A stretch of 9,176 nucleotides of DNA from Magnetococcales bacterium (lineage in GTDB: Bacteria > Pseudomonadota > Magnetococcia > Magnetococcales > Magnetaquicoccaceae), in assembly GCA_015228895.1 (NCBI GenBank), contig JADGCR010000078.1:1-9176 (forward strand). The letters run 5' to 3'. The notes under the pieces are model-generated. The model had not been told where the DNA came from, ran no database searches, and worked only from the letters and a program-made list of their open reading frames with translations. Shown here in pieces: positions 3,660 to 9,176 of the stretch. Position 1 is the first letter of the stretch; each line of letters starts with the position of its first letter. The translations under genes were made by a program, and so were the position numbers.

Positions 3660-4367
3660 CTAGCAGACAACCAGGCAGCGGTTCAACTCGTCCAGAAATT
3701 CCGCCAACTGTTCGATCAGGCGGTCCTTGGTGCGTTCCCGCTCTTCGACGGGACGGTTGGTGCCTTCGCGGAGTTGGAACTCCAGTTCCGGGTCCACGGT
3801 CAGCAGGGGGTCCTGTCCGGTGATGAAGACCACCTGTTCATGCATGGAGTCCACCCGCAAGGCCAGATGCTGGATGATCAGGTCCTTGATCTTGATCCGC
3901 AGGAGGATCTCCAGCGTGGCCATCAACTCCGGGTCGAAGCGCAACACCGTGGTGCTGGCCCTTTGCAGTTCATCGGGAAGCCCCGGTCCGAACAGGTGGG
4001 GAACAGGACCGATCCCCGCGTCGCTTTGCGCCTCGGAGAGGGGATGAACAATCACGTTGGTGGTGCGCACCCGATCGGTGAGAAACGACACTTCCCCAAA
4101 GAAGTCACCAGGAATCAAGGAGGCGAGAGGGATGCGCGCCCCTTTCTTGACCACGCTCGCCCCTCCCGACAGCAGCAGGAAGAAACTTCTCTCCTCGCTG
4201 CTCCCCTCCTGAATCAGGTACTCACCGACATCGTAGACCATCACATGGGTGAAGGGGCCGATCAGGGCTCTCTTCTCCAGGTCGGAAAATGAGGAAAAAA
4301 AATCGATCTGTCGAAAAATCAACAAGAGAGTGTCTGTGTCAAGACCCTTGATCTCACGCATGGACAT
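3660..4367 (-). CDS. Cyclic-nucleotide-binding-fold protein without a recognisable output domain
   Basis: A 235-residue, probably cytoplasmic protein. Residues about 20-107 fit the cNMP-binding (CRP/FNR-type) beta-roll: VGEYLIQEGSSEERSFFLLLSGGASVV, then GDFFGE (87-92) and RVRTTNVIV. The Glu (E92) and Arg (R101) positions that contact the cyclic phosphate in true cNMP binders appear to be present. Residues about 108-138 look like an insertion rich in Gly and Pro, and STTVLRFDPELM (139-150) probably resumes the fold. The rest (about 150-235) looks helical and charged, with no helix-turn-helix or kinase motif. It may therefore be a sensor or adaptor, not a CRP-type transcription factor. A GAAGG lies just before the ATG at 4367; another ATG at 4361 is possible. 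It sits 91 bases upstream of rsmD on the same strand. Ligand and role are unknown. Confidence 0.8.
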   Translation of the reverse strand: MSMREIKGLDTDTLLLIFRQIDFFSSFSDLEKRALIGPFTHVMVYDVGEYLIQEGSSEERSFFLLLSGGASVVKKGARIPLASLIPGDFFGEVSFLTDRVRTTNVIVHPLSEAQSDAGIGPVPHLFGPGLPDELQRASTTVLRFDPELMATLEILLRIKIKDLIIQHLALRVDSMHEQVVFITGQDPLLTVDPELEFQLREGTNRPVEERERTKDRLIEQLAEFLDELNRCLVVC

Positions 4368-5268: not shown

Positions 5269-5871
5269 ATGAAACTCGAACTGTCACGCATGGAAGAGGT
5301 GTACCGGGGATTCTTCCGCCTGCTGAAAGCGCGTTTGCGCTATCAACGTTTCGGCGGGGGAATGAGCCGGGAAGTGGAACTGGAGGTTCTGGAACGGGGA
5401 GACGCCGTGGCCGTGATTCTCTACGACCCGGTGCTGGATCAGGTTGGTCTGATCCGCCAATTCCGCATCGGTCCCCATCTGCGTCAGGAATCCGGTTGGA
5501 TTGTGGAGATCGTGGCCGGTTCCTGCGGCCAGGAGCGGGACACCAGCCAGGTGGCCCGCCGGGAAGTGGCGGAAGAGACGGGATGGCGCATCAGGAAACT
5601 GGAGTTCATTCAGACGTTCTATTTGAGTCCCAGCGGCAGCAGCGAGCGGATTCATCTGTATTGCGGTCTGTTCGACGCCTCCCTCCCCCGCCACCAGGGC
5701 GGGGGACTCGAACAGGAGGACGAGGACATCGAACCCCTGCTGGTCCCCTTCGCCACCGTCCTGGAGTGGATGAGCCAACGGCGCACCTTCAACTCGGCGA
5801 TCGTCCTGCTGGCCATGCAGTGGCTCACCCTCCACCGGGAGCGACTGCGGATCGAGGTCAGCACGCCCTAG
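5269..5871 (+). CDS. nudF: NUDIX hydrolase, ADP-ribose pyrophosphatase type (NudF-like)
   Basis: Predicted cytoplasmic NUDIX enzyme that hydrolyses ADP-ribose to AMP and ribose 5-phosphate. The product is 200 residues, near the usual NudF length. VYRGFF at 11-16 matches the N-terminal segment of E. coli NudF as I recall it. The NUDIX box spans about 84-106 with the metal-binding REVAEE intact (R98, E99, E102, E103). In the Gx5Ex7REUxEExGU pattern the first Glu is replaced by R90, with a Glu one place earlier. LSPSGSSERIHLYCG and DEDIEP match the segments that hold substrate and the catalytic Glu in NudF. The ATG at 5269 fits the family start; GTG 5230 and ATG 5290 are alternatives and none has a clear ribosome-binding site. 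The TAG stop lies in the CTAG that opens the downstream repeat. Confidence 0.88.
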   Translation: MKLELSRMEEVYRGFFRLLKARLRYQRFGGGMSREVELEVLERGDAVAVILYDPVLDQVGLIRQFRIGPHLRQESGWIVEIVAGSCGQERDTSQVARREVAEETGWRIRKLEFIQTFYLSPSGSSERIHLYCGLFDASLPRHQGGGLEQEDEDIEPLLVPFATVLEWMSQRRTFNSAIVLLAMQWLTLHRERLRIEVSTP

Positions 5872-5967
5872 TGGGCCACCCAGGCTATCTTGACATGTTG
5901 CAATGTGCTGGCTCCCCAATAAATCAGGGAAAACCAACATGTCAAATCAGCGCGGGTGGCCTACTAG
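5868..5967. repeat. Palindromic element, copy 1 (about 100 bp)
   Basis: An imperfect inverted repeat bounded by CTAG at both ends (5868-5871 and 5964-5967). The outer arms, TGGGCCACCC and GGGTGGCCTA, pair with one mismatch. The inner arms, TTGACATGTTG and CAACATGTCAA, pair perfectly over 11 bp. They enclose a 34-base centre whose CCC and GGG can also pair. The right arm, read inward, resembles the left arm of copy 2 (GCTGATTTGAC then TGTTG). The bounding tetranucleotides look like a 4-bp target duplication of the YTAR type known for IS5-family elements, so a MITE is a fair reading. It carries no coding capacity. As RNA it would fold strongly and could end transcription from either side. Confidence 0.75.
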
Positions 5968-6064
5968 TGGATCAACCTAGCTGATTTGACTTGTTGCGAT
6001 TTGTCGGTACGCCAGGAAAACCGGGGGAATTGACCCATCAAATTCAGCACGGGTGACCCGCTAG
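5964..6064. repeat. Palindromic element, copy 2 (about 101 bp)
   Basis: A second, more diverged copy that shares its left CTAG with copy 1 and ends in CTAG at 6061-6064. The left arm contains GCTGATTTGAC and the right arm its near complement TCAAATTCAGC, one base bulged. The outer ten bases of each arm agree at 7 positions. The four arms of the two copies fit one consensus: about ten bases like TGGGYCACCC, then GCTGATTTGACATGTTG after a two-base variable spacer. The centre differs from that of copy 1 but shares AGGGAAAACC/AGGAAAACC-like bases. An extra CTAG lies inside the left arm (5977-5980). Greater arm divergence suggests it is the older insertion or under weaker constraint. Confidence 0.7.
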
Positions 6065-9000
6065 GGTTGCACCCGTGTCAAGGCGAAATTCAAGTCGTTC
6101 AGGTTGCCGCTTTGGGAGATCCCCACCGGACGCTGGGTGTACTGGGGCTGCTCCCTGCTGATCCGCTGAATGGAACGGTCCACGAAAATGGAAATCTGAC
6201 TGGCGACCACCTCCTGATCGCTGCGCATGGCCGCCTCCCCTTTCAGACCGTTGAGCACCGTGTAGGCGAACAGACCGTGATCCGTACCCTTGCCGCTCTT
6301 GTCAACATATTCGTCGGCGGACTCCTGGGAGGCTCCGGCCGCGGCCACCAGCAACAGATCGCCGGTCCGCTCCCGCACCTTGCTGATCCCTTCCCGTTCC
6401 TGGTTCAGGTCCAACGACTTCCCCTTCACCTGGAAGGCCCCGGAGTGGCAGGAATCGAGAAACATGATGATCTTCTTGGCCTTCTCCGCCAGCAGCGCCA
6501 TCTTTTCCCCCAGCATGCCTTGGGAGAAGGCGGTCTGTGACCAGTTGTCGGTGGTGCGGGCGTTCTGGGTGATGAAGTAGTAGGTGTTGTCCTGATTGGT
6601 CCCGTGTCCGGCCATGTAGATCACGACGGTATCCTCCGGGGCGATCTGGCTGGCGAGCTTGTCGAAGGCTTTCAAGACGTTGACCTGGGTGGCCTGATCG
6701 TCGTACAGACCCTGGACCACCACCTTGCCATACTCCGGACTGGGACTGCTTGCCATCATCGCGGCCACGGCCCTGGCATCCTTCACCGCGAAACGGAGGC
6801 GGTTTTCCGGTTCCAGATACTGGTCCACACCAATGGCCAGCACATGCATGACGGGCTTGACCCCTCTGGCGCTCCCCCCCGCGACGGGGGCCGGCGGCGG
6901 GACGATCAGTTTCACCACGCCGCTTTTGCCATGGACGCTGTTGGAGGCGTCGAAGGCGCGCATCTGGATCAGGTTCTCATCTGGCAGCAGTTCCAGGTCC
7001 CGTTCCAGGATGACCGCCTCCTCCTGCTGCTCCCTGGCGGCGGGAGCGCGGGCGAAACCACGGGTTTTGGCGTTGGCGTTCTCCACCACCATGCCGTTGC
7101 GCAACAGATGGAGTTCACCCACGCCCCCCGCCCGCTCCTTGAGCCTGAATTTCAGCCGCACCCGCCTTTTGCCCTCCGGCAGTTGCCGGGTGTGGAGCAC
7201 GGGCTCGTCGGCGGAGGCGGTTTTGGCGGGGGCGGAGGCGCGGACGAAACCACGGGTGGTCCCCTTGCCCAGGGGAAAACAGTCCGGCGGGGACTCCCCG
7301 GTGGATTCGGCGCGCCGGAAACCACGGGTGGTGGCGCCGCTGTCCAACAGACAATACTCCACCACTTCCACTTCCGGCACCGGCGCGGCAAAAAGACGCT
7401 GCACCACCGCGTTGGCCTGCTCCAGTTGAGCCGTCAGCGCCGCGTCCCCGTCCCCCCCGGCCATCTTGCGACCCAGCAGGGAAGGAGAGTAGAAACTCTG
7501 GTAGAGTTGACCGAAATCGATCCATTCCGGCGCCTTGGCGCTCCCCCGATTGAGATGGAAACCCGCCAGTCTCTTGCCCCCGTTGCCGGAGTGGGCGAAC
7601 AACCCCTCCCTGCTCCAGGCGATCCATTGACGGTTCTCGGTATTGAAAAAGAGGGTGGCGTACTCCTGCAACGCGGGTTGACCGGCAAGCATGCGATACC
7701 AGTGCAGGGTTCCATCCGCCAGGGCCGCCACCAGATAGCGGCCATCCCTGGAGATGTTGACCCCGTAAACCGCCCCGGTCACATCCACCTTGACCAGCTC
7801 CCGCCCCTGGGCGTCAAACCAGCGCAGAAAAAAATCGGTGCCCAGCACGAAACTTTTGCCATCCGGAGCGATACTCAAGGCGCGGGCGATTTCGTTGCGG
7901 CTCAATGGGAGGGGGCCCTTGTTCTTCAACTGGGGGGAATGGCTGTTCTCCCACCGGGTGACCGTCACGTTCCCATCCTCCACCCCGGGTTGAGCCAGCG
8001 TGGCCTCCCTGGGGGGATTGACGCTCAGTTCCTGATGGGCGATATCGAAGCGCACCAGATCCTTGACACCGGGTCGCAAACGCCACTCCACCACCATGCC
8101 ATCGGGAGAAAGGGCGAAGTGGTGTTTGAAAATGCCCCGGAAATCGGTTATGGGGGCCTTTTTGTGCAGCACGGGCTGACCGGTGGCGCCCACCAGCCCC
8201 CAGGAGGGCTCCGCCGTGGCGTAGACCAGCTTGCCATCCGGCAGATGATCCAGGGAGGTGATGGTGTTCTCGGCGACCACCACATCCACCGGCTTGCCGC
8301 CACCCTTGGCCCAGCGACGGATCACCCGCCTGTTCCCCTTGGCGGCCCCGCCGGCCGCCAGCAGGTCCTCGCCCGCCCAGGTCACCACCGAGAGGTTCTC
8401 CCCCGTCAGTCCGGTCACGTCGGGTTCCTTGACCATGGTGCCGGTCGCCACATCCAACAGGTCCACCCGCAACCTGTCCAGATAGCCCACCGCCAGACGC
8501 CGGTCATCCCCGGAAAAGGCCAGACCGTAAGGCTGCCCGCCCACCGCGGTCTTGACCGAGCGGGTCCATTTCATCTGGCTGTCGTACAGTCGGACGGTGC
8601 CGTCGTCGCTGCTGGTGGCCAGGCGGCCATCCCCGGCGAAGGTGACCCAGTTGGCGGTGGCGGACCCGTACTCCCGATCCTCCGCCAATTTCTTGCCGGT
8701 GCCCGCGTCCCACGCCATCATCCCCTTGCCATCGCCGAACACGGCGGCGAAACGGGTGCCATCCCGGGAGTAGGCCAGATGAAGTATGGTGGCCGGCAAT
8801 TTGGAGAGCCGACTTTTCATCTTCATGGTGGCGGTATCGAAAAGATACAGGGAGTAGCTGTTCTCGTTGTTGGTCACCGCCCCGGCCACCAGGGCGGTGT
8901 GCCCGTCCGGGGACAAGGCGCCCGCATACAGCGCCCCTTCCACCCCGTCGCCGATGGGTACCCGCAACACCCCTTTCAACACCCCTTCCGGCATCTCCCA

Positions 9001-9176
9001 CAGACGGGCGCTCTTGTCGTCCGAGACGGTCAGCAGCAGGGTGCCCTCACGATTGAGGGCCAGGCGGTTGATGATGGCCACATGCTGACCCGCCTCGATG
9101 CGCAGATGGGGCATCTCCGCGGCCTCCACGGCAAAACCGCACCACCACACCACCACCAACGACAGAACCCGCCAGA
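6061..9176 (-). CDS. Exported WD40-repeat/caspase-like (C14) protein, start beyond window edge
   Basis: Large protein of 1032 residues counted from the codon at 9159. The frame stays open to the edge, adding WRVLSL before VVVWWCGFAVEAAE; this reads as a signal peptide, so the true start lies outside. A likely signal-peptidase cut follows VEA. Residues about 25-500 hold WD40-like blades (for example LSPDGHTALVAG, GRLATSSDDGTVRLYD, SRDGRYLVAALADGTLHWY). Residues about 508-562 match the linker common in bacterial WD40-caspases (WIAWSREGLFAHS, then GFHLNRG). Residues about 655-755 look like a beta-sandwich. The C-terminal p20-like domain starts near 770 (MHVLAIGVDQY), with catalytic His in YMAGHG (H852) and Cys in LDSCHSGAF (C904); a p10-like part follows. 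It should cleave after basic residues like other orthocaspases, by inference. It converges on nudF. Confidence 0.9.
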   Translation of the reverse strand, partial: WRVLSLVVVWWCGFAVEAAEMPHLRIEAGQHVAIINRLALNREGTLLLTVSDDKSARLWEMPEGVLKGVLRVPIGDGVEGALYAGALSPDGHTALVAGAVTNNENSYSLYLFDTATMKMKSRLSKLPATILHLAYSRDGTRFAAVFGDGKGMMAWDAGTGKKLAEDREYGSATANWVTFAGDGRLATSSDDGTVRLYDSQMKWTRSVKTAVGGQPYGLAFSGDDRRLAVGYLDRLRVDLLDVATGTMVKEPDVTGLTGENLSVVTWAGEDLLAAGGAAKGNRRVIRRWAKGGGKPVDVVVAENTITSLDHLPDGKLVYATAEPSWGLVGATGQPVLHKKAPITDFRGIFKHHFALSPDGMVVEWRLRPGVKDLVRFDIAHQELSVNPPREATLAQPGVEDGNVTVTRWENSHSPQLKNKGPLPLSRNEIARALSIAPDGKSFVLGTDFFLRWFDAQGRELVKVDVTGAVYGVNISRDGRYLVAALADGTLHWYRMLAGQPALQEYATLFFNTENRQWIAWSREGLFAHSGNGGKRLAGFHLNRGSAKAPEWIDFGQLYQSFYSPSLLGRKMAGGDGDAALTAQLEQANAVVQRLFAAPVPEVEVVEYCLLDSGATTRGFRRAESTGESPPDCFPLGKGTTRGFVRASAPAKTASADEPVLHTRQLPEGKRRVRLKFRLKERAGGVGELHLLRNGMVVENANAKTRGFARAPAAREQQEEAVILERDLELLPDENLIQMRAFDASNSVHGKSGVVKLIVPPPAPVAGGSARGVKPVMHVLAIGVDQYLEPENRLRFAVKDARAVAAMMASSPSPEYGKVVVQGLYDDQATQVNVLKAFDKLASQIAPEDTVVIYMAGHGTNQDNTYYFITQNARTTDNWSQTAFSQGMLGEKMALLAEKAKKIIMFLDSCHSGAFQVKGKSLDLNQEREGISKVRERTGDLLLVAAAGASQESADEYVDKSGKGTDHGLFAYTVLNGLKGEAAMRSDQEVVASQISIFVDRSIQRISREQPQYTQRPVGISQSGNLNDLNFALTRVQP
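7046..7068 (-). repeat. In-frame 23-bp repeat, copy A (third in protein)
   Basis: One of three near-identical 23-bp segments inside the caspase gene, all sharing GAAACCACGGGT on the plus strand. Here it encodes KTRGFARA (about residues 698-705). This copy lacks the left half of the ACCAC/GTGGT palindrome seen in the other two, having AAAAC in its place. Confidence 0.65.
7238..7260 (-). repeat. In-frame 23-bp repeat, copy B (second in protein)
   Basis: Same 23-bp repeat, encoding TTRGFVRA (about residues 634-641). On the coding strand it contains the palindrome ACCAC-CC-GTGGT. It lies 192 bases (64 codons) from copy A. Confidence 0.7.
7310..7332 (-). repeat. In-frame 23-bp repeat, copy C (first in protein)
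   Basis: Same 23-bp repeat, encoding TTRGFRRA (about residues 610-617), with the same ACCAC-CC-GTGGT palindrome. It lies 72 bases (24 codons) from copy B. All three copies use the same frame. Confidence 0.7.

Follow-up and report, generated by a model that had tools for sequence, protein, structure and literature searches.

Two tandem CTAG-bounded palindromes between convergent genes of a Magnetococcales bacterium as probable copies of an IS630-type MITE family

The RUP element of Streptococcus pneumoniae is a non-autonomous sequence of about 107 bp which, in the cited portions of the reports, is proposed to be mobilised by IS630-Spn1 and is placed at TA-containing targets (PMC3049150, PMC2229807). 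Within the IS630 family itself, ISY100 is described as duplicating TA (PMC2170065, section cited), and the title of a work listed in that same paper states that IS630 prefers the TA in 5'-CTAG-3' (Tenzen and Ohtsubo 1991). For ISPsy32, an IS630-family member of Pseudomonas syringae pv. actinidiae, the target is given as CTAG repeats in the part of the paper cited here (PMC8027508). The same tetranucleotide is found in the account of MITEPsy1 of Pseudomonas syringae, an element of 100 nt which, according to the passages used, duplicates CTAG or YTAA (PMC3189936), and in the title of the work on IS870, where the CTAG target is tied to a stop codon (Fournier et al. 1993).

The locus studied here lies in a stretch of 9,176 nucleotides from a Magnetococcales bacterium, which is called the window in what follows. 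The initial annotation had described two units of about 100 and 101 bp that have one CTAG in common and CTAG at both outer ends, and our coordinates agree with it. The features of the locus are the following.

5269..5871, plus strand: NUDIX hydrolase gene (Pfam NUDIX, 3e-9; start inferred from the 200-aa protein length)
5868..5871, no strand: probable left target copy CTAG, which includes the TAG stop of the NUDIX gene (5869-5871)
5872..5963, plus strand: probable MITE copy 1, a 92-bp core forming an imperfect palindrome (inverted repeat; similarity to G003)
5964..5967, no strand: shared middle CTAG between copies 1 and 2
5968..6060, plus strand: probable MITE copy 2, a 93-bp core with a left arm that resembles the end of the IS630-family IS of G005
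6061..6064, no strand: probable right target copy CTAG, which includes the TAG stop of the WD40-caspase gene (6063-6061, minus strand)
6061..9159, minus strand: gene with WD40 repeats and a caspase domain, 1032 aa (Pfam Peptidase_C14, 1e-13)

CTAG is scarce in the window, where it was found five times (at 5868, 5964, 5977, 6061 and 3660) against 32 occurrences expected from the base composition. Unit 1 extends over 5868-5967 (100 bp) and unit 2 over 5964-6064 (101 bp), the CTAG at 5964-5967 being common to both and that at 5977 being internal to unit 2. Once the CTAGs are set aside the cores measure 92 and 93 bp; both are short and lack a transposase gene, and TA is present at both ends of both copies. 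The only CTAG outside the elements, at 3660-3663, is the TAG stop of a gene encoding a cyclic-nucleotide-binding domain (3660-4367, minus strand).

Each unit had also been described as an imperfect inverted repeat, and this was borne out by terminal complementarity and by folding, both of which exceed those of shuffled sequences. The inverted-repeat search gave for unit 1 a pair of arms of 33 nt that are 82% complementary, and listed no arm pair for unit 2 alone. The ungapped terminal matches amounted to 21/27 in unit 1 and 16/22 in unit 2, the respective maxima in 20,000 mononucleotide shuffles being 17 and 13. Folded as single-stranded DNA, the units gave z values of -5.4 (unit 1) and -2.8 (unit 2), each of them better than 200 out of 200 dinucleotide shuffles.

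The two units fill the space between genes that face each other, the NUDIX gene on the plus strand and the WD40-caspase gene on the minus strand, as had been stated, and both genes have their TAG stop inside the bounding CTAG. The ends of both genes are native, because their relatives terminate at the same or nearly the same residue: the WD40-caspase orthologues in G001 and G002 are 71% identical and have the same terminal residue and the same VQP end, and in NUDIX homologues at four loci (L003, L005, L006 and L008) the C-terminus is no more than a few residues away from that of the window protein. The homologues of the NUDIX protein in Magnetococcales reach 75% identity, and its closest named homologues belong to this order. 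When the elements and the extra target copies are removed in silico, what remains is CCCTAGGG, which carries TAG on both strands and thus two overlapping stops. In the relatives examined the NUDIX and WD40-caspase genes are not neighbours, and no empty site for the window locus was found there. In G001 and G002 (L100, L101) another reading frame begins in the same direction just past the WD40-caspase stop, whereas the window has the facing NUDIX gene, so the neighbourhood has been rearranged.

Scanning with a NUDIX alignment yielded 50 loci, of which 16 are from Magnetococcales; by way of these loci 48 genomes of the class Magnetococcia became searchable. The whole 197 bp used as query detected full-length relatives in G003, and copy 1 is 69-71% identical over about 100 bp to two copies in that genome. 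The terminal repeat, with up to two mismatches allowed, was present in 20 of the 48 genomes and its reversed control in none of the 48; G020 contained 44 matches and G038 contained 42, and many matches form inverted pairs about 190-250 bp apart. We also built a covariance model of the class of about 97 bp from eight copies of about 97-105 bp, two of which come from the window. It gave matches in at least 14 of the 48 genomes (E <=0.1; 86 candidates scored per genome), with a best E below 1e-9 in 10 of the matching genomes, four of which (G003, G019, G041 and G042) had supplied sequences to the model. Copies outside the building set are found as well, for example in G040, G046, G011, G014 and G006. 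The dispersed copies foreseen by the initial annotation therefore exist in relatives, by the repeat search as well as by the model.

The arm sequence had no match in the viral contig collection searched, and the 197 bp, compared at low stringency with plasmids, matched one record over about 29 bp, which is chance level. Rfam gave no match on the window at the gathering threshold. No description of this MITE family was found in the open-access literature searched on IS630, MITE, CTAG-target and magnetotactic topics.

The target duplication was studied in 62 non-redundant elements, a non-random sample taken from chosen regions of repeat and model matches, mostly in G020 and G038. TA is present at both ends in 44 of them, and the other 18 were excluded from the test. 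Identical 4-mers were found on both sides of 38 of these 44 elements, whereas 10,000 permutations gave 16.1 on average and never more than 25; the next base outward was identical in 10/44. From the tetramer identity and the behaviour of the outward base it follows that the target duplication is 4 bp long and that the elements end in TGG...CCA. The duplicated tetramer is NTAN and mostly CTAG: among the 38 there are 22 CTAG, 8 GTAG, 4 CTAC, 2 CTAT and 2 ATAG, and over all 62 elements the base to the left of TA is C in 47 and the base to its right is G in 52. When the related tandem loci of G038 are left out, agreement persists in 32 of 38 elements (mean 16.7, maximum 26 in 100,000 permutations). 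G038 taken alone gives 8/8, equalled in 11 of 100,000 permutations; G020 taken alone gives 15/19, which was equalled in 4182 of 20,000 permutations and is uninformative, because nearly all targets in this genome are CTAG and the test has no power there. Of the 4-bp YTAR-type target that had been proposed, the length was thus confirmed, and the YTAR form has to be replaced by NTAN with CTAG preferred. A duplication of TA only (2 bp), as in ISY100, does not describe the family, although at CTAG sites such as those of the window duplications of 2 and 4 bp look the same. The family is filed as IS630-type by its ends, the 4-bp duplication being a variant feature.

An IS with the same terminal repeats, which the earlier reading called for, was found in three relatives. 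Complete ISs of about 1.2 kb in G005, G033 and G014 carry the terminal repeat and CTAG at both ends. That of G005 (about 1.23 kb) has two reading frames, the first with HTH_32 and HTH_29 and the second with DDE_3 (1.4e-30), and this second frame scores 146 bits with the IS630 model NF033545, whose cut-off is 100; the transposases of G033 and G014 are close homologues of it (76-77%). Over a 37-nt stretch of query, the left arm of MITE copy 2 and the end of the G005 IS are 87% identical. The same end is present twice in G013, there with C or T in place of G after the TA, as would be expected of a base that is part of the target, and in G020 a fragment of the matching transposase clade adjoins the repeat. 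Judging from this sequence likeness, the parent of the window MITEs is likely an IS630-family IS. G003, G019 and G038, MITE carriers which are fragmented MAGs, yielded no IS630 transposase flanked by these ends. Of the 48 genomes, 14 were searched for IS630 transposases and 7 of these gave a match; at the 16 loci examined the repeat matches (up to five mismatches) were chance-like in nine and absent in seven, which speaks against the presence of a parent IS in those assemblies. The IS630-type transposase of G005 is split over two frames (positions 906-2076 of L052), as is that of G033, and this points to frameshifting or to decay in parallel.

An empty site with a single CTAG, also anticipated, was seen for one sister element. 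The G020 element at L142 is absent from the orthologous loci of G034 and G028; the joined G020 flanks align with both of these loci without a gap at the junction (identity about 65%), each locus has a single CTAG at that point, and this CTAG is the in-frame TAG stop of the same gene in all three genomes. For two loci of the class of about 97-105 bp (L204 and L190) no locus matching both flanks was present among the matches listed. The search with L191 returned homologues of the right-hand gene only, two of which stop at the equivalent residue, with a TGA or a TAA codon. Inside the G020 element of about 200 bp, the stretch at about 599-668 of the L142 query matches many places in many of the 25 matching genomes and looks like a separate repeat, widespread in Magnetococcia.

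Stop codons at the junctions are not peculiar to the window. The count covered 120 element sides for which the flank reached 700 bp or more; any frame of at least 100 codons was taken as gene-like, and in 59 of the sides such a frame ends no more than 300 bp away. At 16 of the 120 sides the stop codon coincides with the junction itself, and no other distance occurs more than twice. These 16 stops are distributed over 15 loci, the window giving two of them and the other 14 loci having no common flanks; one is TAA (L141) and the others are TAG. By another criterion, 15 stops were counted for 117 element sides and 11 for 237 sides of non-element CTAGs, the former count omitting the left side of the window, where a longer antisense frame exists. 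The pattern may be sufficiently explained by the preference for CTAG, the scarcity of CTAG inside genes and the loss of harmful insertions.

We are confident that the two units are decayed copies of a non-autonomous Magnetococcia MITE, whose presumed mobiliser is an IS630-family (Tc1/mariner-like) transposase working in trans on shared terminal repeats. The copies in relatives, the ISs with matching ends and the 4-bp duplications uphold the non-autonomous element that had been suggested from the window alone. The ancestral locus would have been a convergent gene pair whose TAG stops overlapped in one CCCTAGGG. A first MITE, transposed by the IS630-family enzyme supplied in trans, would have inserted into that CTAG and duplicated it, each gene keeping a CTAG and with it a stop; a second, different copy would presumably have entered one of the regenerated CTAGs afterwards, to give CTAG-element-CTAG-element-CTAG. 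There is no need to assume a host function. A wider reading, which we offer tentatively and doubt slightly more than we believe, is that an IS630-type lineage duplicates 4-bp NTAN and not TA, and that its preference for CTAG, where CTAG is rare, leads it to land repeatedly on TAG stops, the stop being copied and the insertion being harmless. Overlapping stops of facing genes would then be a doubly safe site, and each insertion would recreate targets and so lead to tandem arrays.

Adjacent elements with one NTAN in common were found in six places (the window, L115, L116, L119, L126 and L134), and at control positions repeat-like matches occurred in 14 of 6100. The four pairs of G038 (L115, L116, L119 and L126) share flanks or partners, so at least three of the six are independent; the G038 loci L115, L116, L119/L162 and L126 may represent copies of a single composite. 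In the G038 pairs of L116 and L126 the main type has directly beside it a variant of the repeat, TGGGCCGACAAAGCTAAAATGACA or TGGGGCGACAAAGCTAAAATGACA. Each copy offers targets to the next, because insertion into CTAG leaves two CTAGs.

The tandem arrangement of the window could also have been produced, still with MITE copies, by one insertion followed by local tandem duplication, and the two copies do align better in the same orientation (35.5 forward against 27 reverse). We consider this unlikely, since the identity between the copies (68%) is no higher than that of either to a G003 copy (71-72%), and since the two elements paired at L119 differ in length class (222 and 130). Two insertions of one type of element, as the initial annotation had it, agree with the existence of the family, the 4-bp duplications and the recurrence of tandem pairs in relatives.

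A YTAR target is typical of IS5, and a 4-bp duplication, a preference for CTAG and a length of about 100 bp would suit an IS5-family MITE with a 4-bp YTAR-like target, as is MITEPsy1. We regard this origin as very improbable, since the ends read TGG... here and GGAAGGTCTG... in the portion of the MITEPsy1 paper cited (PMC3189936), and since each of the three complete ISs identified by these ends encodes a transposase of the IS630 type. The least probable explanation, to which we give hardly any credit, is that of an immobile local pair of bidirectional transcription terminators serving the facing genes: the position between convergent genes and the folding of both units would suit it, but homologous copies are dispersed and ISs with matching ends exist, the terminator scan found 0 sites with a GC-rich stem and T-run in 5700-6250, and the RNA consensus of 16 copies shows next to no covariation (term -0.01), although in 3 of 12 predicted pairs a sequence is changed on both sides. 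Having been inserted as MITEs, the units may have acquired a secondary role as terminators.

Elements of this kind, IS630-type MITEs, are already known, RUP being the close analogue, and it has been published that members of the IS630 family target CTAG, as the cited titles and extracts attest. What the window adds is a MITE family of Magnetococcia with its likely parent IS, together with a simple way for a mobile element to occupy a convergent gap harmlessly, the duplicated target tetramer containing the stop codon. The excess of stop codons at the junctions and the 4-bp duplication provide testable predictions about IS630-type transposases.

Compared with the systems described at the outset, the Magnetococcia elements have in common with IS630 and ISY100 the IS630-family DDE transposase; ISY100 differs by duplicating TA, in the section cited, whereas here the base on each side is duplicated too. 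ISPsy32 is alike in its CTAG target and differs in being an autonomous IS, the comparison resting on its published description. The ends of MITEPsy1, as given in the cited passages, resemble those of ISPsy2 (IS5 family), unlike the ends found here. In IS870, according to the title cited, the target supplies the stop for the gene of the IS itself, whereas the CTAG of the window preserves the stops of host genes. The closest resemblance is to RUP, in size, non-autonomy, terminal repeats that resemble the ends of an IS630-family IS and TA in the target, a likeness drawn from the cited descriptions; RUP belongs to a host of another phylum, and the Magnetococcia MITE duplicates 4-bp NTAN, with CTAG preferred.
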